Both the position numbers and the translations under genes were made by a program. The notes below the pieces were generated by a model. The model was not told the origin of the DNA. It saw only the letters and a list, made by a program, of their open reading frames with translations, and ran no database searches. Positions 21,438 to 34,637 of a stretch of DNA of 64,000 nt are shown piece after piece. Source of the stretch: Roseibium polysiphoniae (lineage in GTDB: Bacteria; Pseudomonadota; Alphaproteobacteria; Rhizobiales; Stappiaceae); NCBI RefSeq assembly GCF_014842925.1, contig NZ_JACYXJ010000004.1, positions 62,001-126,000 of the forward strand. Direction: 5' to 3'. Each line of letters begins with the position of its first letter. Position 1 is the stretch's first letter.

Positions 21438-22244
21438 TCACTTCTGCTGATAAAGCCTCGATAGATCAAAGGCATGAATGTCCTTCAATAGATCGACAAA
21501 TCCCTGTGCCGCATGATCGAGGGACTTTTTCCCTTTTTCTGCGGCTGCATTGGCGGCGTTTCCGAGGGCTCCCTTCGGAGACAGGTCCTGTGCTTTCCAT
21601 CCGAACTGCTGGGCACCGTGTCCGCGCAGATATTTGAACTCCTTGATGAAGTCCTGCTGCGCAGATGTGAAATCCTCGGCGAGATCCATCCGCACCAGGT
21701 CAGGATGCAGGTGGAGCATGATTGACGTTTCGACGTCGCCGCCGTGAATGCCATAGGTAAATTCTTCGGCCGGAAACACCCCTTCAGGCTGGCCAAATCT
21801 TGCCCAGGCGGTTGCCGTGACGAGCATGTCGTGGCTGACCCGAAGCTCGCGCGCAATCGTGTCGATGACAGGAACATTGCCGCCGTGGGAGTTGATGAGG
21901 ACAAGCTTTTTGATGCCTGCACGTGCGACGCTTTCGCCGATCTCAAGCCATGCCCTCGTGACCGTGTCCCAGGAGAGGGTCAAGGTGCCCGGCGATGAGA
22001 TGTGCTCATTCGATTTGCCAACTGCTTGGGTTGGAAGAAAAGTCGCGGGGATGTTGTCCGGAAGAAGCTCCAGGACGCGGCGGACCTGTCCCTCGGCGAT
22101 GGCCGTATCAGTGAATACGGGCAAGTGTGGGCCATGCTGTTCGATCGCGGCGACCGGCAAGACAGCGATCCAATCCTTCGTGTCCGGGCTCGCAAAGTCG
22201 AGCGTCGTCATTTCGTGCCAATACCGTTTGGGAAGATTTGTCAT
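21438..22244 (-). CDS. Creatininase-family amidohydrolase
   Basis: A 268-residue enzyme of the creatininase fold. Metal-binding residues are recognisable in PVAAIEQHGPHLPVFTDT (Glu, His, Asp), INSHGGN (His) and GIHGGDVETS (Glu). Family members open cyclic or linear amides: creatinine, 3-dehydro-scyllo-inosose, or mycofactocin precursors. Creatinine to creatine would suit the methylglycine locus 4 kb away, but no creatinase gene accompanies it, so the substrate stays open. It is transcribed alone and divergent from the SprA-like gene. Confidence 0.88.
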   Translation of the reverse strand: MTNLPKRYWHEMTTLDFASPDTKDWIAVLPVAAIEQHGPHLPVFTDTAIAEGQVRRVLELLPDNIPATFLPTQAVGKSNEHISSPGTLTLSWDTVTRAWLEIGESVARAGIKKLVLINSHGGNVPVIDTIARELRVSHDMLVTATAWARFGQPEGVFPAEEFTYGIHGGDVETSIMLHLHPDLVRMDLAEDFTSAQQDFIKEFKYLRGHGAQQFGWKAQDLSPKGALGNAANAAAEKGKKSLDHAAQGFVDLLKDIHAFDLSRLYQQK

Positions 22245-24858: not shown

Positions 24859-26202
24859 TCAGAGGCTTTCGAGAAACCGCTTTGCGGCAGAGCCATGTTC
24901 GTGGCGAAGTTCCGCGATGTCGATGCTTGTTGGGATGCAGTCAACGACGGTCCAGTTACCACCAATCATGACACGGTCAGCGGTATGCGCACCGCAGAGA
25001 ACGAGCGCGGCGAGCGGATCACCTGCGCCTGAGAACCGAAGTTCATCCAAAGTGTAGAAGGCCATATCGGCCATCATGCCAAGCTTGATGGCGCCGATAT
25101 CTTCGCGTCCCAGGCATCGCGCCGAGCCTTCGGTGGCCCAGCGGAACGCGTCGAAGTGCGTCACAGAAGCTGCGTCATAGGTCAGGCGATTGATCATGAG
25201 GGCGTGGCGGACGCTTTCGATCAAATTGGAATTGTCATTGGACGCAGAGCCATCCACGCCAAGGCCTACAGGGCAGCCGGCAGCTTCAAGCTCCTTGGTC
25301 CGGCACTGACCGGAGGCAAGGACCATGTTCGACGTTGGGCAGTGGCATACACCAACGCAGGCATGGCCCAGACGCTTGATCTCGTCGTCGTTGAAGTGAA
25401 TGCCATGGGCGAGCCAGACACGCTCGTTCAGCCAGCCGCACTCCTCAAGATAGTCGACGGGCCGGCAATTGAACTTCTCGAGACAATAATCGTCTTCGTC
25501 GATGGTCTCGCCCAGATGGGTATGAAGACGACAATCGTATTTCTCGGCGAGGGTCACGCTTTCCTGCATCAGGCGTTTGGTGACCGTGAAAGGCGCACAT
25601 GGAGCAAGGGCAACCTGTAGCTTCGCCCCCTTGGAGGTGTCGTGGTATTTGGAAAGGACCCTTTCGCAGTCCGCCAGGATCGTGTCTTCGTCCTGAACAA
25701 CCGTGTCAGGTGGCAGTCCGCCGTCCTTCTGGCTTAGGTTCATGGAGCCGCGGGTGAGGGTCATGCGAAGGCCGACGCGCTCAGCTTCCTCAGCCTGGAT
25801 ATCCATGGCGGATTCCAGCCCGTCAGGAAAGAGATAGTGATGATCCGATGCGGCCGTGCAACCGGACATCATGAGCTCCGTCAGTGCGAGGCGCGTGCCA
25901 AGGCGGAAGTTCTCGGGCGTAACGTTCTTGGCCCAGATTGGGTAGAGCGAATGTAGCCAGGGAAAGAGTTCCTTGTTGATCGCGTCCGGGTGAGCTCGGG
26001 TCAACGTTTGAAAGAAATGATGATGCGTGTTCACCAGACCTGGTGTGATGACATGCCGGGAAGCGTCGAAGGTCTGGTCAACGGGCAGCATCGGCTCTTT
26101 GCCTGTGCCGATCAATTCAACGATGACGCCGTCTTCGATGACAATGCCGCGCTCGGCGCCTTCGGCTAGGATTGAAATGGGGTCTTTGATCCACAAACGC
26201 AT
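24859..26202 (-). CDS. 8-oxoguanine deaminase-like amidohydrolase
   Basis: A 447-residue amidohydrolase-superfamily enzyme. Metal ligands are in VNTHHHFFQTLTRAHP (about 57-72), the HTHLGE motif (about 229) and GLGVDGSASNDNSN (about 315). Overall it resembles the Pseudomonas 8-oxoguanine deaminase group (EC 3.5.4.32), including the start MRLWIKDP and the CHCPTSNM segment. It would convert 8-oxoguanine to urate, salvaging damaged purine. Guanine-, isoguanine- or hydroxyatrazine-type deamination remain alternatives. It lies 239 bp after a RidA gene on the same strand, with a long inverted repeat between. Confidence 0.87.
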   Translation of the reverse strand: MRLWIKDPISILAEGAERGIVIEDGVIVELIGTGKEPMLPVDQTFDASRHVITPGLVNTHHHFFQTLTRAHPDAINKELFPWLHSLYPIWAKNVTPENFRLGTRLALTELMMSGCTAASDHHYLFPDGLESAMDIQAEEAERVGLRMTLTRGSMNLSQKDGGLPPDTVVQDEDTILADCERVLSKYHDTSKGAKLQVALAPCAPFTVTKRLMQESVTLAEKYDCRLHTHLGETIDEDDYCLEKFNCRPVDYLEECGWLNERVWLAHGIHFNDDEIKRLGHACVGVCHCPTSNMVLASGQCRTKELEAAGCPVGLGVDGSASNDNSNLIESVRHALMINRLTYDAASVTHFDAFRWATEGSARCLGREDIGAIKLGMMADMAFYTLDELRFSGAGDPLAALVLCGAHTADRVMIGGNWTVVDCIPTSIDIAELRHEHGSAAKRFLESL

Positions 26203-26441: not shown

Positions 26442-26828
26442 TCAGGGCTTCGCCGCTATGACTTCAACTTCGACGACGAACTCTTCGCGGGCGAAGCCCG
26501 AGACGATCATCAAAGTCGATGCTGGTGGTGGGTCTGCGGTGAATTCATCCCGTGTCTTCATGTAGCCAGGGAGATGCTCACGACCGGTGACATAGGCGTT
26601 GATACGGACCAGATCGGAGAGGTCCATCTCTGCCTCTGCGAGGATCGCCGAGATGTTCTCAAAGCACAAACGCGTCTGACTTTCGACATCTGCCGGGATG
26701 TTGTCGTCGCTTGAGATTCCGAGTTGGCCAGAAGCGAAGATGATGCGATGGTTGGCGGGCACTTCAACGCCGTGGCTATAACGAGCGAATGGTCTTCGAA
26801 TTGTTTCAGGTGTCAGCGGTTTGGGCAT
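26442..26828 (-). CDS. RidA/YjgF-family protein
   Basis: A 128-residue RidA-fold protein of normal length. ATG 26828 has CAAGG about 10 bases upstream; the frame continues to 26939 without support. Motifs are RIIFASGQLGISSDD, RLCFENISAILAEAEMDLSDLVRINAYVT and DPPPASTLMIVSGF. In the last the usual R(S/T) arginine is not at the normal place, so imine-deaminase activity is uncertain. It is upstream of the deaminase gene on the same strand and divergent from the NtrC-type operon. Confidence 0.88.
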   Translation of the reverse strand: MPKPLTPETIRRPFARYSHGVEVPANHRIIFASGQLGISSDDNIPADVESQTRLCFENISAILAEAEMDLSDLVRINAYVTGREHLPGYMKTRDEFTADPPPASTLMIVSGFAREEFVVEVEVIAAKP

Positions 26829-26932
26829 GGATGTGACCTTGGTGTCATGTGTTTGCGCTCGAAAACTGCCCTGCTCTGCATTCAGGAGCAAGTCGGTGTC
26901 TGATGAAGCTGATGGCAATTTCCGCCAGCATG

Positions 26933-26949
26933 TGCACAATAAAAGTGCA
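26933..26949. promoter_or_regulatory. NtrC-type enhancer site
   Basis: TGCACAATAAAAGTGCA has exact TGCAC and GTGCA arms separated by 7 A/T bases, the geometry of the NtrC consensus. Its centre is about 142 bp before the start expected from the sigma-54 promoter, a usual enhancer distance. Confidence 0.78.
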
Positions 26950-27056
26950 GCGACGTTTGAGGGCTTCCAAAGGCGTCGTCGTCGTAGATGGGTGTGTTAA
27001 ATGAACATGGCAGAATCTTGCGGTGGAAGGGCCTTGTTGCACTGATCGTGCGGTGA

Positions 27057-27073
27057 TTGGCACAGGCCTTGCT
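27057..27073 (+). promoter_or_regulatory. Sigma-54 promoter (-24/-12)
   Basis: TTGGCACAGGCCTTGCT matches the consensus TTGGCAC-N5-TTGCW, with GG at 27059-27060 and GC at 27071-27072 separated by exactly 10 bases. Transcription would begin near 27084, about 113 bp before the binding-protein start codon. Confidence 0.82.
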
Positions 27074-27196
27074 ATTTAAACATTGCATGATTGCCTGATC
27101 CGCTCTCAGGGCCTGAGGAGGCACAGCGGCAGAGCACAACGTTGGCGCGTGCAAAGCACCGCGCCGGCTTAGAGCGATTAGGAGACGGAAGACAAC

Positions 27197-28207
27197 ATGC
27201 GTATTCTCAAGTCCTTTGGCGTGGCTTTTGCCGCCCTGTCAGTTTCAACCAGCGCCTTTGCGCTCGAGAAAGTTTCTTTCGGCACCAACTGGGTCGCCCA
27301 GGCCGAGCACGGCGGCTACTACCAGGCTGTTGCCGATGGCACCTATGAAGCTTGTGGTCTCGAAGTCGAGATCAAGCCGGGTGGGCCTCAAGCAAACAAC
27401 CGTATTCTGCTTCCTGTCGGAAAGATCGACTTCCTCATGGGCGGCAACATGCTGCAGGCGTTTTCCGCTGTCGAGCAAGGCATTCCGACAACAGTGGTTG
27501 CCGCACATTTCCAGAAGGAACCGCAGGTTCTTCTGACGCATCCGGACGCTGGGCATGATACCTGGGAGAGCTTGAAAGACATCAATCTGCTGATCGGCAA
27601 GGGCGGTTTGAACTCCTACTATCAGTGGATGATTGCCGAGTTTGGTTTTTCGGCAGATCAGGTTCGTCCCTACACTTATAATTCCGCGCCTTTCCTTGCT
27701 GACAAGGACCTAGGCCAGCAGGGTTATATTACGTCAGAGCCCTTCGCGATTGAAAAAGAGGGTGGCTTCAAGCCGAACATCTTCCTGATCGCTGACTATG
27801 GCTATGACAGCTATGGTACGACCGTTGAGACGCGCACCGACCTGATCGAGAACAAGCCGGAAGTGGTGAAGTGCTTCGTTGAAGGTTCCGCGATAGGCTG
27901 GGTTAATTTCCTTTATGGGGATAACGCCGCGGCTCTTGAGTTGATCAAGAAAGACAACCCTGGCATGTCTGATGAGCAGCTCGCGTTTTCAATCGAGAAA
28001 ATGAAGGAATACGGCATCGTCGATTCTGGTGACAGCCTCACCATGGGAATTGGTGCGATGACCGACGAGCGCAACAAATCGTTCTTTGACAAGATGGTTG
28101 CAGCTGGTGTTGTGAGCGCCGATGTTGATGTCAGCAAGGCCTACACGCTGGCATTTGTGAACGCAGGCGTTGGCGTCGATCTCAAAAAGAAGCTGACCGG
28201 TAACTGA
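27197..28207 (+). CDS. ABC transporter substrate-binding protein (NMT1/THI5-like)
   Basis: A 336-residue periplasmic protein with a Sec signal peptide (about 1-22, cut near AFA-LE). The mature part has the NMT1/THI5 layout: SFGTNWVAQAEHGGYYQAVADG, DFLMGGNMLQAFSAVEQG and GGLNSYYQWMIAEFG. Members bind pyrimidine precursors, riboflavin, nitrate or aromatic sulfonates. A cytosine deaminase gene in the same operon favours a pyrimidine-type nucleobase. It is the first gene after the sigma-54 promoter. Confidence 0.93.
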   Translation: MRILKSFGVAFAALSVSTSAFALEKVSFGTNWVAQAEHGGYYQAVADGTYEACGLEVEIKPGGPQANNRILLPVGKIDFLMGGNMLQAFSAVEQGIPTTVVAAHFQKEPQVLLTHPDAGHDTWESLKDINLLIGKGGLNSYYQWMIAEFGFSADQVRPYTYNSAPFLADKDLGQQGYITSEPFAIEKEGGFKPNIFLIADYGYDSYGTTVETRTDLIENKPEVVKCFVEGSAIGWVNFLYGDNAAALELIKKDNPGMSDEQLAFSIEKMKEYGIVDSGDSLTMGIGAMTDERNKSFFDKMVAAGVVSADVDVSKAYTLAFVNAGVGVDLKKKLTGN

Positions 28208-28245: not shown

Positions 28246-28279
28246 CCTTGGCTGTGAGGCGTACGCATGACAGCCAAGG
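28246..28279 (+). promoter_or_regulatory. mRNA hairpin presenting the ATPase start codon in its loop
   Basis: CCTTGGCTGT (28246-28255) pairs perfectly with ACAGCCAAGG (28270-28279). The 14-nt loop holds the ribosome site GAGGC and start ATG (28267). It probably lowers ATPase translation relative to the binding protein, or responds to translation or a ligand. Confidence 0.6.
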
Positions 28280-29082
28280 TATCGGAGTCGGGGCAGGGCG
28301 CTAGGGCGTCCTCTCCCGCCATCGTTTCTCTCAACCAGATCTCCAAGACCTTTTCCAACGGCACCATTGCCCTGCGGGAAATGTCACTGGATATCCGACA
28401 GGGTGAATTCATTACATTGCTGGGCCCCTCGGGGTGCGGGAAGTCGACGGTGCTCAGGATATTGACCAGTCTGACCAGCCCGACAACCGGGCGGGTTGAG
28501 TGGCCGATGGAGCAGAGCGGCCAAGACGAGCACGAAATGAGCTTCGTCTTCCAGGAGCCGACCTTGATGCCCTGGGCGACCGTGTTCGGCAACGTCTGGC
28601 TTCCGCTTCGGTTGAAGGGCATTTCCAAGAAGCTGGCCCATGATCGTGTCATGGAAGCACTCGAAATGGTGGGGCTCGCCGGTTTTTCGGAAAGCTATCC
28701 GCGTGAGCTTTCGGGTGGCATGAAAATGCGTGTCTCCATCGCGCGGGCGCTGGTGACCAAGCCAAAGGTCCTTCTGATGGATGAGCCTTTCGCGGCGTTG
28801 GACGAGATCACTCGCTTCAAGCTGAACAACGACATCCTGCATCTTTGGGAAACCTTCGGCTGGACCGTTGTCTTTGTCACCCACTCGGTATTCGAGTCTG
28901 TGTATCTGTCCAACCGGATCGTGGTTATGGCCGCTCGGCCAGGACGTGTGGTCAACGACATGACCCTTGATGCACCCTATCCTCGCGGCGATGAATTCCG
29001 GACGTCTGCGGAATACGGAGACTATTGCCGGACCGTGTCCGATGCGCTCCATGCCGCCATGGATGCCAACGACCACCTGTAA
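28267..29082 (+). CDS. ABC transporter ATP-binding protein
   Basis: A 271-residue SsuB/TauB/NrtD-type ATPase. Walker A is LLGPSGCGKST (about 51-61), the Q-loop is FVFQEPTLMPW, the signature is LSGGMKMR (about 154), Walker B is VLLMDEPFAALDE and the switch histidine is in FVTHSVFE. It energises import with the adjacent permease. Its start codon lies in the loop of a 10-bp hairpin. A second weak inverted repeat (CCACCTG/CAGGTGG, 29073-29099) covers its stop codon. Confidence 0.96.
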   Translation: MTAKVSESGQGARASSPAIVSLNQISKTFSNGTIALREMSLDIRQGEFITLLGPSGCGKSTVLRILTSLTSPTTGRVEWPMEQSGQDEHEMSFVFQEPTLMPWATVFGNVWLPLRLKGISKKLAHDRVMEALEMVGLAGFSESYPRELSGGMKMRVSIARALVTKPKVLLMDEPFAALDEITRFKLNNDILHLWETFGWTVVFVTHSVFESVYLSNRIVVMAARPGRVVNDMTLDAPYPRGDEFRTSAEYGDYCRTVSDALHAAMDANDHL

Positions 29083-29118: not shown

Positions 29119-30000
29119 ATGACTGTTCTAACTGAACATGCTGTCGCTGTGCCCGAGCATTCCGGGCAGGCCGTGCCGCTCGACCCGTTGGAGGTCTCCA
29201 AAGCGCGCGCAGCGAAAATCGAACGCCAGGGCCGCTGGATACTTCCGGTCGTGATCCTTCTGATCTCCATCGTTCTTTGGGATCGGATTTGCGTCTGGAA
29301 CGAGATACCGCACTATATTCTGCCACGACCGATCCTGGTCTATGAGGCGTTGATCGCCGACTGGCCTATCCTTTCGATTGCGCTTTTGAACACGCTCAAG
29401 ATTACGCTTGGCGCGATGCTCATCGCCACATTTGGTGGGCTGGCGCTCGCGGTGCTTTTCACGCAATCCAAGTGGATCGAGATCTCCTTCTTCCCCTTTG
29501 CCGTGATCCTGCAGGTGACGCCAATCATCGCAATCGCGCCGTTGATCTTCATCTATGTGGATTCCGTTGAGGCCGGTCTTTTGATCTGTGCCTGGATCGT
29601 CGCGTTCTTTCCCGTCCTGTCGAACACGACGCTGGGCCTGAATTCGGCGGATCATAACCTGCGCAACCTTTTCCAGATGTATGGGGCGACGCGCTGGCAA
29701 ACGCTCCGCTACCTGCGGCTTCCAGCGGCGATGCCTTACTTTCTGGGTGGACTGCGTATTGCTGGTGGACTGTCGCTTATCGGCGCGATTGTCGCCGAGT
29801 TCGTCGCGGGATCGGCAGGGTCCGGTTCCGGTCTTGCGAACCAGATCCTCGAATCCAGCTATCGCTTGAACATACCGCGTATGTTTGCGGCGCTGATCCT
29901 CATCTCGGGGACCGGCATCGTGATCTTTCTGCTGATGAATTTCCTCTCGCATGTTTTTCTGCACAAGTGGCATGAGAGCGCCTTGAAGCGGGAGAACTGA
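29119..30000 (+). CDS. ABC transporter permease (BPD family)
   Basis: A 293-residue membrane protein with about six helices. The EAA coupling motif is LFQMYGATRWQTLRYLRLPAA (first 20 residues of the loop, about 185-205). A long charged N-terminus (about 1-35) precedes TM1. It is 36 bp after the ATPase gene and one base before the deaminase gene, so it is clearly in the same operon. Confidence 0.95.
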   Translation: MTVLTEHAVAVPEHSGQAVPLDPLEVSKARAAKIERQGRWILPVVILLISIVLWDRICVWNEIPHYILPRPILVYEALIADWPILSIALLNTLKITLGAMLIATFGGLALAVLFTQSKWIEISFFPFAVILQVTPIIAIAPLIFIYVDSVEAGLLICAWIVAFFPVLSNTTLGLNSADHNLRNLFQMYGATRWQTLRYLRLPAAMPYFLGGLRIAGGLSLIGAIVAEFVAGSAGSGSGLANQILESSYRLNIPRMFAALILISGTGIVIFLLMNFLSHVFLHKWHESALKREN

Positions 30001-30001
30001 G

Positions 30002-31330
30002 ATGGCTGCCGTTTTGGGAATGGACGCGCAGGAAGATGTTCTCCTGCGCAACGCGACTTTGCCTGCCTGCTTGTTGCCGCCGGACCTGGCGGGAACTGAT
30101 GCAGCGGCCTTGTTGTTACTGGATATCGGCGTTGTTGCAGGGCGCATTGCGAGTATCTCCCCCGCCGGAGAGTTGGAAGGTTCAGATGGGCGAAGCTTCG
30201 ATCTTGATGGCGGCATGGTGTTGCCGACCCTGGTCGATATGCACACGCATCTGGACAAGGGGCATATCTGGCCACGACGCCCAAATCCAGATGGAACGTT
30301 TATCAGCGCCTTGAACGCCGTTGGTGAGGATCGCCTAGCTTCCTGGACGGCAAGCGATGTCCGTGCCCGCATGGAGTTCGGCCTTCGCAGCGCTTATGTC
30401 CATGGCACTTCAGTCATCCGGACACACATTGATAGTCTTCCGCCGCAGGACGAAATCTCCTGGCCGGTTTTCGTGGATCTTCGGGATGAATGGAAAGACC
30501 GGATCCTCTTGCAGGGTTCTTGCCTTTTTGGCATTGACCGCCTGATTGATCACCCGGGCTACCTGGACAGCATTGCCGACAGGGTTCGGGCCGCAGAAGG
30601 CGTGCTTGGTGCTGTCACCTATATGGTGCCGGGGCTCGATGATCATTTGGATACCATCTTTAAGGCTGCGATCGAGCGGGGGCTCTCGCTGGATTTCCAT
30701 GTCGATGAGACCAAGGATCCTGACTCGCGAACCTTGAAACACATTGCCGAGGCAGCCATCCGCTCTGGATATGATCGCAAGATCGTGTGCGGTCATTGTT
30801 GTTCGCTGGCACGCCAGCAGCCCGATGAAATCGATGCAACACTTGATCTGGTCGCCAAGGCGGGCATCGGCGTGGTGTCCTTGCCTATGTGCAATATGTA
30901 TCTGCAGGATCGAGAGCAGGGCAGGACTCCCCGCTGGCGGGGCGTTACGCTGTTGCATGAAATGAAGGCCAGAGGCATTCCGGTCGCCGTCGCCTCCGAC
31001 AACACGCGTGATCCTTTTTATGCCTATGGTGACCTCGATTTGATCGAAGTCTATGCGCAAGCGACCCGGATCCTGCAACTTGATCATCCGATCTCTGACT
31101 GGATATCAACGGTGTCCTATGGCGCTGCCGAGATGCTGAACGTGGATGCAGGGCGTTTGACCATTGGCGCGGCAGCGGACCTGATCCTGTTCAGAGCGCG
31201 CGATTGGAGTGAATTGCTGTCACGCCCGACTGGCGCACGCGAGGTGCTGCGCAGTGGGCGGACAGTCGCCGATGCCCTGCCAGATTATCGGGAACTGGAC
31301 CATTTGATGACGAAGAGCGGAGCCGCATGA
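30002..31330 (+). CDS. Cytosine deaminase-like amidohydrolase
   Basis: A 442-residue amidohydrolase with CodA-type motifs: DMHTHLDKGH (about 79-88), LDFHVDET, KIVCGHCCSLA (about 260), and ASDNTRDPFYAYGDLDLIEV (about 337), the last with the metal-binding Asp and DPFY turn of cytosine deaminases. It deaminates cytosine to uracil and ammonia, or a related oxidised base. It starts one base after the permease stop, and its stop overlaps the next start (ATGA), giving translational coupling. It would release ammonia from the imported base under nitrogen limitation. Confidence 0.9.
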   Translation: MAAVLGMDAQEDVLLRNATLPACLLPPDLAGTDAAALLLLDIGVVAGRIASISPAGELEGSDGRSFDLDGGMVLPTLVDMHTHLDKGHIWPRRPNPDGTFISALNAVGEDRLASWTASDVRARMEFGLRSAYVHGTSVIRTHIDSLPPQDEISWPVFVDLRDEWKDRILLQGSCLFGIDRLIDHPGYLDSIADRVRAAEGVLGAVTYMVPGLDDHLDTIFKAAIERGLSLDFHVDETKDPDSRTLKHIAEAAIRSGYDRKIVCGHCCSLARQQPDEIDATLDLVAKAGIGVVSLPMCNMYLQDREQGRTPRWRGVTLLHEMKARGIPVAVASDNTRDPFYAYGDLDLIEVYAQATRILQLDHPISDWISTVSYGAAEMLNVDAGRLTIGAAADLILFRARDWSELLSRPTGAREVLRSGRTVADALPDYRELDHLMTKSGAA

Positions 31331-32736
31331 TGAGTACTCTTGAGACACTCAAAGCCGAGCTTGACGGCTTGCAGATTGAAGACAACCCACAGATCGTCAA
31401 ACAGAAGAGCCGTGACTTTTTCTGGTACTCGCCGGTGCTAAAGCATCAGCTTGAAAACGTCTCCGCCGAGCTCGTGGTCACGCCGAAAACCGAGGACGAG
31501 ATCGTTCAGGTGCTGAAGGCGTGTTACGCCCACGACGTTGCGGTCACAACGCGCGGTGCCGGCACTGGAAACTACGGCCAGGCGATGCCCCTGGCGGGCG
31601 GTGTCATCCTCAATCTCGCCGAGATGAACAAGGTCAAGGAAATTCGCCCGGGCGTCGTTGTCGCCGAGGCCGGAGCGATCATTTCCACGATCGATGACGA
31701 ATGCCGGGCTCATTCAGGTCAGGAACTCCGCCTGCATCCGTCGACCTACCGAACTGCGACCATTGGTGGTTTCATCGCCGGCGGGTCCGGCGGCGTCGGG
31801 TCGATCAATTGGGGTGGCTTGCGCGATGCCGGCAACGTCATCCGGCTCCGTGTTCTGACCATGGAAGCCGAGCCCCGGGTTCTGGAGATGAAGGGCGAAG
31901 ATCTGCAGAAGGTCATGCACGCCTATGGCACGAATGGCGTGATCACCGAGGTCGAGATGCCATTGACGGCGTCTTATGATTGGGTGGACGTGCTCGTCGG
32001 ATTCGACGCGTTTATGGACAGTGTTCATTTCGCAGATGCGCTTGGAAACCAGGATGGTCTGCTGCTGAAGGAGATCGCGCCGATTGCAGCGCCGGTTCCG
32101 CATGACTATTTCCTGCGGCACCAAAAGTTCATACGAAAGGATCAGTCCGTCGTTGTCTGTATGGTCGCGCCGTTCGCGATGGATGCTTTTGCGGCCTTTG
32201 TCGGGCGCAATAGTGAGGCTTCTATTCTTTATCGCTCGGACACCGCCGATGAAGGTGTCAAGAAGGGGTTGCCGCCCGCCTATGAATTGGCGTGGAACCA
32301 CACCACCCTGCGCGGTCTGCGCGTCGACCCGAATGTGACCTACCTTCAGGTTCTGTATCCCTATCCGAACCAGGTGGAAAAAGTTCGGACAATGGTCGAG
32401 CTGCTTGGTGATGAGGTGCCGGCGCATCTCGAGTATGTTCGGTTCGATGGCAAAGTGACCTGCTTCGGCCTGCCGATCGTCCGTTACAGCAGTGAAGACC
32501 GGCTGAACGAGATCATCAAGCTTCACGAGGACAACGGGTGCCCGATCTTTAACCCGCATCGATACACCCTCGAAGAGGGCGGGATGAAGCAGACGGATGC
32601 TGTCCAGCTTGCCTTCAAGAAAGAGGCTGATCCAAAGGGCCTGCTCAACCCGGGCAAGATGATTGCGTGGGAGGATCCCTCCTACGACTATTCGTCTGAA
32701 AAGCTCTTTCTTTTTCCCGGCTTGCAGACCGGATAG
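31327..32736 (+). CDS. FAD-binding oxidoreductase (GlcD/FAD_binding_4 type)
   Basis: A 469-residue flavoprotein. The PCMH FAD-binding domain (about 45-225) has VTTRGAGTGNYGQAMPLAGG and STYRTATIGGFIAGGSGGVG, typical of vanillyl-alcohol-oxidase/GlcD-type enzymes. The C-terminal part ends NPHRYTLEEGG and KGLLNPGKMI, the latter a standard closing motif. The start overlaps the deaminase stop. In this operon it probably oxidises the imported base or a derivative, but no family member of known substrate could be identified. Confidence 0.88.
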   Translation: MMSTLETLKAELDGLQIEDNPQIVKQKSRDFFWYSPVLKHQLENVSAELVVTPKTEDEIVQVLKACYAHDVAVTTRGAGTGNYGQAMPLAGGVILNLAEMNKVKEIRPGVVVAEAGAIISTIDDECRAHSGQELRLHPSTYRTATIGGFIAGGSGGVGSINWGGLRDAGNVIRLRVLTMEAEPRVLEMKGEDLQKVMHAYGTNGVITEVEMPLTASYDWVDVLVGFDAFMDSVHFADALGNQDGLLLKEIAPIAAPVPHDYFLRHQKFIRKDQSVVVCMVAPFAMDAFAAFVGRNSEASILYRSDTADEGVKKGLPPAYELAWNHTTLRGLRVDPNVTYLQVLYPYPNQVEKVRTMVELLGDEVPAHLEYVRFDGKVTCFGLPIVRYSSEDRLNEIIKLHEDNGCPIFNPHRYTLEEGGMKQTDAVQLAFKKEADPKGLLNPGKMIAWEDPSYDYSSEKLFLFPGLQTG

Positions 32737-32835: not shown

Positions 32836-33417
32836 ATGCGGGTTCTGGTGTTATTCGCGCATCCGGTCGAAACTAGCTTTGGCGCAGCTCTCCATCAACA
32901 AGTGCTTAGCTCGCTTCGGGACGCAGGGCATGAGGTTGATGATCTCGATCTCTACGGCGATGATTTCGACCCGCGTCTGACGCGCGAGGAACGGCTCGGC
33001 TATCATGAGCTCGATACCAATACGAGTTCGGTTGCCGATTATGTTGAGCGATTGCAGAAGGCCGAGGCGCTGGTGATCGTGACGCCGGTTTGGAACTTTG
33101 GTTATCCGGCAATCCTCAAAGGATTTTTTGATCGGGTGTTCCTGCCTGGCGTGTCGTTCGAGATGAAAGATGGCAAGGTTGCGCCATGTTTGCACAACAT
33201 CAAGAAGCTGGCGGTGGTCACCACCTATGGCGGCTCGAGGTTGAGGGCTTTTCTGGTCGGCGACCCGCCGCGCAAGATTGCGACGCGGGTTCTTCGTGCG
33301 ACCATCAAGCCGGCAGCGCCCATTTCCTATCATGCTCTTTATGACATGAACCGTCGGACGCAGGCTGAGCGTGAAGCGTTCCTGGCTCTGGTGGCAGCCA
33401 AAATGGAGGCATTTTGA
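32836..33417 (+). CDS. NAD(P)H-quinone-oxidoreductase-like flavoprotein 1
   Basis: A 193-residue flavodoxin-fold protein of the NQO/MdaB/Kef-accessory family. FMN contact regions are LFAHPVETSFGAALHQQ (about 4-20), VTPVWNFGYPAILKGFFDRV (about 78-97) and VVTTYGGSRL. ATG 32836 has GAGG about 7 bases upstream. It is followed by a close paralogue with stop and start sharing a base. Joint role with the FAD oxidase is plausible, for example supplying reduced flavin, but unproven. Confidence 0.88.
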   Translation: MRVLVLFAHPVETSFGAALHQQVLSSLRDAGHEVDDLDLYGDDFDPRLTREERLGYHELDTNTSSVADYVERLQKAEALVIVTPVWNFGYPAILKGFFDRVFLPGVSFEMKDGKVAPCLHNIKKLAVVTTYGGSRLRAFLVGDPPRKIATRVLRATIKPAAPISYHALYDMNRRTQAEREAFLALVAAKMEAF

Positions 33418-34004
33418 TGCGCGCGCTCGTCGTCTATTGTCATCCTTGCCCCGAGAGCTTCAACGGCTCAGTGCTCGCAACAACTGTCGAGACCTTGAAA
33501 TCAGCGGGACATGAAGTGAGGGTCAGCGACCTCTATGCAGAAGGGTTCGACCCGGTGATGAGCGCTGAGGAACGACGCGGTTATCACACTCCAGAGAGCA
33601 ACGTGACGCCGGTGGCAAAACACGTCGATGACATTCGCTGGTGCGAAATGATTGTGTTTGTCTACCCGACCTGGTGGTTTGGCCTGCCCGCGATGCTGAA
33701 GGGGTGGTTTGACCGGGTCTGGGTGCCGCATGTGACCTTCGAGATGCCGACGGCGGAACAGGGCATGAAACCGAAGATGCAACACATTGGGCGTATCGCG
33801 ATCGTGACCACTTGCGGTGCGACCTGGTGGATCTCCAAGCTGATTGGTGAACCCGGGCGCAAGACGATCCTGCGCGGTATGCGCGCCCTGTGCGCTCCGC
33901 GTTGCAAGACGCTCTATCTGGCGCATTACAAGATGGATTCATCTACCGAGCAGACACGATCCAATTACCTGGCTAAAATTCGCCAACGCTTGGCGGCATT
34001 TTGA
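33417..34004 (+). CDS. NAD(P)H-quinone-oxidoreductase-like flavoprotein 2
   Basis: A 195-residue paralogue of the preceding protein. Shared segments include DLYAEGFDPVMSAEERRGYH, matching DLYGDDFDPRLTREERLGYH (residues 39 onward in each). YPTWWFGLPAMLKGWFDRVW covers the FMN/active-site loop. The TGATG overlap with the first gene shows coupled translation. Tandem duplication and retention suggest a heteromer or two substrates. Confidence 0.88.
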   Translation: MRALVVYCHPCPESFNGSVLATTVETLKSAGHEVRVSDLYAEGFDPVMSAEERRGYHTPESNVTPVAKHVDDIRWCEMIVFVYPTWWFGLPAMLKGWFDRVWVPHVTFEMPTAEQGMKPKMQHIGRIAIVTTCGATWWISKLIGEPGRKTILRGMRALCAPRCKTLYLAHYKMDSSTEQTRSNYLAKIRQRLAAF

Positions 34005-34121: not shown

Positions 34122-34637
34122 ATGGCATTTAACTACAAGAAGAGCGTGACTTTTCGCTTGGTTCAAGCAGCAAAGGCTCAGCGGGCGAGATCCGGCAGCC
34201 ACCTGATGCGCATTGGGTTGCATCCAGGTCAGGAGCTGGTGCTAAAGGTTCTTGCAGACAGCGATGGCCGGACCATGAGCCAGCTTGCGTTGGCTCTTGG
34301 CGTTCAGCCTCCGACGGTTACGAAGATGGTGACCCGCCTGTCCGCACAGGGCTATGTTCGCCGACAGGTTTCCGACACGGATGGACGGCTCGCTCGCGTT
34401 TACCTCACAGATGAGGGCAGGGGTCTCGTGGACAATGTCGACCGAGCCTGGAAGCGTCTTGAACGTGAGGCAATGTCTGGTCTCGATGACAAGGATCGCA
34501 AGAAGCTTAGGAAGCTCCTGCGGCAGATCGAGAAGAACCTTTCCCTGTCTTTGGACAACGACCCAGAGCATGAAAGTGAGCCGGAAACGGACACGGACAA
34601 CGAACCGGAAACCAAGCCAAAGTTGGCTGCTGTCTGA
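34122..34637 (+). CDS. MarR-family transcriptional regulator
   Basis: A 171-residue regulator. The winged helix-turn-helix is at about 48-110 (MSQLALALGVQPPTVTKMV and the wing DTDGRLARVYLTDEG). The C-terminus is an acidic tail rich in Glu, Asp, Pro and Thr (about 148-168), unusual for the family and probably disordered. It lies 118 bp after the two quinone-reductase-like genes, whose kind is often a MarR target. Confidence 0.92.
   Translation: MAFNYKKSVTFRLVQAAKAQRARSGSHLMRIGLHPGQELVLKVLADSDGRTMSQLALALGVQPPTVTKMVTRLSAQGYVRRQVSDTDGRLARVYLTDEGRGLVDNVDRAWKRLEREAMSGLDDKDRKKLRKLLRQIEKNLSLSLDNDPEHESEPETDTDNEPETKPKLAAV

Follow-up and report, generated by a model that had tools for sequence, protein, structure and literature searches.

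What controls the expression of the seven-gene import and catabolism operon found in Roseibium polysiphoniae, and which compound does it break down? We analysed these questions in a stretch of 64,000 nucleotides, hereafter the window, whose numbering is used throughout. On the plus strand, the operon begins with a substrate-binding protein of the NMT1/THI5 family (27197–28207; PF09084), followed by an ABC transporter ATPase (28267–29082), an ABC transporter permease (29119–30000), an amidohydrolase/deaminase matching the PRK07583 model, which we propose as a putative pterin deaminase (30002–31330), a flavin oxygenase homologous to PDB 6V42 (31327–32736), and two flavodoxin-fold NAD(P)H oxidoreductases (32839–33417 and 33417–34004, both PF02525). 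A MarR-type gene, named from its sequence, lies at the operon's end (34122–34637). On the minus strand are a divergent RidA-family gene (26442–26831), belonging to a family commonly labelled "endoribonuclease", an 8-oxoguanine-deaminase-like gene (24859–26202) and a creatininase-family hydrolase (21438–22244). Among the 70 full-length related loci, these three have relatives in 67, 12 and 64, respectively. The three ABC genes, the deaminase, the oxygenase and at least one flavodoxin-fold gene occur together in all 70 full-length named loci, and the order binding protein, ATPase, permease, deaminase, oxygenase is kept in 69; these counts record presence anywhere in a locus at E 1e-8, with 10 shorter loci left out. 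Relatives of the oxygenase were encoded in at least 586 stretches in one scan. An earlier note on this DNA had described the operon genes as they stand, but its naming of a "cytosine deaminase" and an "FAD oxidase" should be revised, and its picture lacked both the leader RNA described below and the RidA and creatininase-family genes that travel with the cluster.

The same note had placed an exactly spaced NtrC dyad and a consensus -24/-12 promoter ahead of these genes, and we found both on the plus strand. The dyad, TGCACAATAAAAGTGCA (26933–26949), is of the NtrC type and perfect for TGCAC-N7-GTGCA, has two mismatches to TGCACC-N5-GGTGCA, and lies 108 nt upstream of the -24 element. The sigma-54 promoter, TGGCACAGGCCTTGCT (27058–27073), is near consensus, agreeing at 11 of 12 positions with the correct GG/GC spacing (GG-N10-GC), and its position predicts a transcript start near 27084. 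Taken singly, neither element is rare. The perfect dyad occurs at two places in the whole 4.58-Mb genome, against about four expected (4^-10), the second copy sitting within a long open frame and the copy at 26933 being the only intergenic one found. The strict -24/-12 pattern has 10 sites genome-wide against 7 for the reversed control. Most of these ten lie upstream of transporter-like genes, as judged by reading the frames with no family search, and one of them, L173, is accompanied at -109 by an NtrC-like dyad with a single mismatch.

It is in combination, and by their conservation, that dyad and promoter exceed chance. Of the 88 regions preceding the binding-protein gene in related operons, 28 contained a sigma-54 site matching at least 11 of 12 positions (26 of 81 after removal of 7 duplicate rows), while 30 sets of dinucleotide shuffles gave a mean of 0.3 and a largest count of 1. 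We then scanned up to 200 bp upstream of the 34 sites scoring at least 10/12, with mononucleotide shuffles as the control. An NtrC-like dyad with at most two mismatches preceded 13 of these sites (2.8 expected) and one with at most three mismatches preceded 30 (17.7 expected); the promoter and dyad rows share descent and are not independent, and these enrichment ratios are no probabilities. For 16 of the 34 sites, the best dyad lay 98–128 bp upstream of the -24 element. Among these rows, the perfect dyad was confined to the window and its sister genome (L033), whose oxidase is 99% identical to the window's. The genome encodes NtrC (710 bits, cut-off 558.6) and one RpoN. Taken together, these findings support a predicted nitrogen control of the operon through NtrC and sigma-54. 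The promoter claim of the earlier note is therefore sound; its pathway claim, a nitrogen-starvation route for a pyrimidine-like base, keeps the NtrC/sigma-54 control, on the strength of sequence and conservation, but is corrected as to the substrate, since a simple nucleobase is not favoured.

The evidence on the substrate comes mainly from the oxidase. Compared with PDB 6V42, titled "Crystal structure of the flavin oxygenase with cofactor bound involved in folate catabolism", it showed 64% identity over 465 aligned columns (717 bits), the next-best PDB match scoring 51 bits. The similarity of sequence and fold to this folate-catabolic flavin oxygenase (6V42/6V43) extends over the full length; the structure prediction reached a pLDDT of 74 from a 19-row alignment and 34 from the single sequence. 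Because of this identity, a pteridine is a likelier substrate than cytosine or uracil, and at least one of the redox genes is not a new part, as they had been supposed to be, since the oxidase resembles a solved folate-catabolism enzyme. That the operon instead degrades cytosine or another simple nucleobase, as first proposed, would agree with a deaminase that passes the NCBIfam cytosine deaminase model PRK07583 (615 bits, cut-off 403), with the 8-oxoguanine-deaminase-like neighbour and with the NMT1/THI5 binding protein. We regard this reading as quite improbable, given the oxidase match and the deaminase itself, which scores 106 bits against E. coli CodA (1k6w), and in which FGIDR replaces FPQEG and DN replaces DD. 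Gln156 and Asp314 are substrate-contact residues of CodA, and neither the alignment to 1k6w nor the cluster alignment showed these contacts in the deaminase; Gln is absent at the first site in all seven aligned cluster deaminases, where DN is invariant.

The operon thus appears to serve the import and catabolism of a pterin/folate-type compound, as far as homology can indicate. The steps would probably run from import through deamination, flavin oxygenation and hydrolysis by the creatininase-family enzyme to enamine clean-up by RidA. The deaminase of the cluster is formally annotated as a cytosine deaminase, and the proposed pterin role would revise that. The product of the 8-oxoguanine-deaminase-like gene at 24859–26202 might act on an oxidised pterin. 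Some further observations concern the relatives. L069 carries a second oxygenase paralogue, 42% identical (G000:C8:556567-557907), near an ArgE-type deacetylase, an aminotransferase and a BKACE gene; G026 has a 41% oxygenase match with one TAG inside the matched stretch; and in G455, G457, G460 and G462 (genus g28) the oxygenase matches contain one TGA, possibly just a stop codon near the end. In Rhizobium leguminosarum a chemoreceptor gene (L114:12546-14492) adjoins the cluster, perhaps for chemotaxis toward the same compound. The neighbour genes in L042, L064, L069, L114 and L166 gave no additional clue to the substrate.

Alignment of the upstream regions revealed a block that is nearly constant while its surroundings drift. 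This element of 47 nt (27091–27137, plus strand) lies just downstream of the predicted transcript start, within the leader. Among 17 representatives chosen from 29 leaders, any two copies of the element were on average 0.88 identical; the corresponding means were 0.61 in the 50 nt preceding it, 0.45 between the element and the Shine-Dalgarno region, and 0.66 over the initial 60 bases of the coding sequence. With a covariance model, R1, built from 12 sequences including the window's own, the window element scored 72.1 bits. R1 matched at E 0.05 or better in 36 of 87 family genomes; 29 of the 87 had a strong match (E 3e-13 or better), one copy each, and the remaining matches were weak, at 26 bits or less (E 0.001–0.05). 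Each of the 29 strong copies immediately precedes the binding-protein gene. Likewise, all 29 genomes belong to the 60 with the oxygenase, and none of the 27 oxygenase-free genomes carries a strong copy. These counts show both the conservation of the element and its association with the operon.

The strong matches are distributed over genera g1 (23 genomes), g27 (5) and g143 (1), so that the element family is phylogenetically narrow and its rows are not independent. No strong match was found outside the family in the order-wide (397 genomes) and class-wide (385 genomes) samples, where the top score beyond the family was 31.6 bits. The order-wide search gave matches in 17 of the 397 genomes, seven of them within the family; we read the other ten as chance, as those in L082 and L084 fall in transporter-like frames and the rest are plainly different by eye. 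Two weak matches outside the family came from the class-wide sample. Two Roseibium loci, L036 and L040, have the operon and the promoter with the element absent. Across the 81 de-duplicated upstream regions, element and sigma-54 site (here at least 10/12) occurred together in 9, the element alone in 11, the site alone in 25 and neither in 36, L105 being scored as lacking the element (a loose-pattern match inside coding sequence, 7.2 bits with R1).

Two side observations belong to these upstream regions. Behind the same leader element, two versions of the binding protein occur, about 57–60% and 82–85% identical to the window's 27197–28207, in a comparison of the window with L034, L035, L037, L038, L039, L041 and L042-L052. 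In seven loci (L042, L044, L045, L047, L048, L049 and L052) no sigma-54 site is present, and the region ahead of the binding-protein gene contains a common block that is rich in AT and partly palindromic; the block reads TGCTAAAATTTCAAGCA in L042 and lies at about -235 in L045 and L049. Downstream of its cluster, L042 also carries a gene for a GntR/FCD regulator (L042:11077-11799), perhaps a swap of regulator.

When folded in isolation, the 47-mer computed to a structure of two helices. Stem P1 pairs 27100–27104 with 27125–27129 (CCGCU/AGCGG) and is extended by 27095–27097 with 27130–27132 (CUG/CAG); hairpin P2 pairs 27111–27113 with 27120–27122, and a conserved internal loop occupies 27105–27110. 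A second leader hairpin follows at 27144–27165, in which the sister genome has a two-sided stem change from TGC/GCA to TAC/GTA; all of these features lie on the plus strand. In 17 distinct element sequences, 99.5% of the cells pair. Covariation was seen in one of 11 pairs, a P2 pair that changes from C-G to U-A in three sequences, and the five core pairs of P1 never vary, so the case for P1 is drawn entirely from complementarity. Element length ranges from 45 to 48 nt, with the variation in the loop. The support for the structure hence comes chiefly from complementarity and from the varying loop length, covariation being sparse, and the folding energies of whole leaders were unremarkable (z -2.7 to +0.2). 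A leader peptide was considered and rejected by eye: only some of the sequences have the short frame ATG ATT GCC TGA, and frames are disrupted by the indels in the loop.

Such invariance could also be expected of DNA, and the 47 bp might be an operator bound by a repressor or an activator immediately past the start site, with no role as RNA. Both arms of P1 are invariant within a very highly conserved block that adjoins the promoter, and a MarR-type gene stands at the operon's end. We nevertheless consider an operator unlikely, because the loop varies in length, the C-G to U-A change affects a paired position, and one arm is complementary to differing start regions in several lineages. That the element acts in the transcript is further argued by its retention in the 11 loci where a sigma-54 site was not recognisable.

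The complementarity to the start region links this RNA element to translation. In the window, the initiation region of the first gene spans 27171–27188 on the plus strand, with the Shine-Dalgarno sequence GGAG at 27181–27184. The computed fold of the window leader pairs 27094–27106 with 27171–27182, covering AGG at 27180–27182 and leaving about half of the Shine-Dalgarno stretch unpaired. The element's CCGCTC arm shows complementarity to the first gene's start region despite differences there among lineages, of which GGAGACGG, GGAGAGG, GGGGAACGCGGAA, GGGGAAGGCGG and GGAGGCGG are examples. For 20 distinct start regions, the duplex with the arm had a mean of -12.8 kcal/mol, compared with -7.8 kcal/mol for 572 other starts of the clusters (Mann-Whitney p 4e-12, a value that ignores relatedness; four gene types were left out of the controls). 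The mean was -8.5 kcal/mol at 41 binding-protein starts without the element, and element loci gave intermediate means of -10.8 kcal/mol at their deaminase starts and -10.0 kcal/mol at their permease starts.

In whole leaders, the pairing of arm and start had a probability of at least 0.5 in 20 of the 26 distinct sequences and fell below that value in L208, L207, L077, L213, L215 and L081. P1 was favoured instead in L213, L215 and L081, which make up three of the five distinct g27/g143 leaders; because of this preference for the P1 hairpin, the hidden state is not the default in these three. Pairing exceeded the leader's own shuffled control in 24 of the 26, with a modest excess for any single leader: the observed value was reached by 1–20 of 40 shuffles in 25 of the 26 rows and by 37 of 40 in L208. 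These computations show that the internal hairpin and the start-region pairing compete for the same CCGCTC arm. An arm that pairs with the start in 20 of 26 leaders would also suit an RNA thermometer, or the target of a small RNA or RNA-binding protein, in place of a metabolite sensor. To our knowledge RNA thermometers need no invariant internal loop, and that of the element would be superfluous for one; moreover, the element is tied to a single catabolic operon in 29 of 29 cases, which speaks against all of these alternatives, and we give them little credence.

On these grounds we propose a control region in two layers for a pterin/folate operon, transcription through NtrC and sigma-54 being followed by a translational ON switch in the leader, a reading that we judge to have an even chance of being right. 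When nitrogen is scarce, NtrC bound at 26933–26949 would activate RNA polymerase carrying sigma-54 at 27058–27073, as sequence and conservation suggest, and the transcript would open almost at once with the structured element of 47 nt. In the fold computed more often, the 5' arm (CCGCTC and its neighbours) would pair with the binding-protein gene's start region and hold back translation. The self-folded element, with P1 and P2, would withdraw the arm so that translation could start. This fold would most likely be stabilised by a small molecule of the pathway, possibly a pterin-like ligand, and production of the importer would then require both a shortage of nitrogen and the presence of the substrate. 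The ligand, the direction of switching and the substrate are inferred. A more specific reading, that the leader is a new riboswitch class which senses a pterin or folate breakdown product and forms an AND gate of nitrogen status and substrate, is offered tentatively, as somewhat less probable than its contrary. The leader may in any case represent an RNA sensor of a novel kind, which looks capable of masking or freeing the ribosome-binding site. As an uncatalogued candidate it has few candidate ligands and a compact natural form, the stretch from the element through the first codons spanning 89–90 nt in g27 and g143. The conserved cluster itself suggests a setting in which marine and soil Rhizobiales scavenge nitrogen from folates.

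Comparison with catalogued RNAs agreed with a separate identity of the element. Rfam 15, which includes folate riboswitches, gave no match at gathering score at the window locus, and none in four relatives, where at the element there was no match at E up to 5 either. At E up to 1, the window had two sub-threshold matches, to a nematode sRNA and to a human lncRNA, which overlaps the element on the minus strand with 15.3 bits (gathering score 80); both families are eukaryotic and unrelated. By the genes it accompanies, the xanthine riboswitch (RF03054, also called the NMT1 motif) is the nearest known kind. It was rejected as an identity, with no match at the locus at gathering score or at E up to 1; a search of the genome with this family gave four sub-threshold places, none of them at this locus. 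Elsewhere, at L101:16831-17170, Rfam matches to the ar45 sRNA and the speF leader adjoin each other and are unrelated to the cluster. A literature search, with most subscription journals outside its scope, found nothing on the leader or the cluster.

Among known pathways, the Rut route of pyrimidine degradation has a flavin oxygenase, a flavin reductase, a RidA-family member and NtrC control. The present operon resembles it in having a flavin oxygenase, a reductase, a RidA-family gene and predicted NtrC control, and differs from it in that its flavoenzyme belongs to another family and its cluster contains a deaminase and a creatininase-family hydrolase. A parallel in neighbourhood can be drawn from PMC9513972, which describes Arad3529 of Agrobacterium as a pterin deaminase acting on folate, and its homologue PDA of Variovorax F1 as deaminating folate and pteroate. 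The Variovorax PDA gene lies near predicted cytosine and creatine amidases, with an "endoribonuclease" gene next downstream (PMC9513972). If that label marks a RidA-family gene, the Variovorax neighbourhood would resemble the present one, a likeness taken from published description. As for the leader, the passages of PMC7373994 consulted describe RF03054 as a short hairpin with a conserved internal bulge, found in Proteobacteria upstream of NMT1/THI5-like and transporter genes and likely to act on translation. Our element is similarly predicted to be a hairpin with a conserved internal loop ahead of NMT1/THI5 importer genes. The Rfam consensus of RF03054, GAGUAGAAGCGGUCAG...CGGGACAUUGCUC, bears no evident likeness to it, and, according to the same passages, RF03054 is reported as an OFF switch, whereas the element described here is proposed to be an ON switch.
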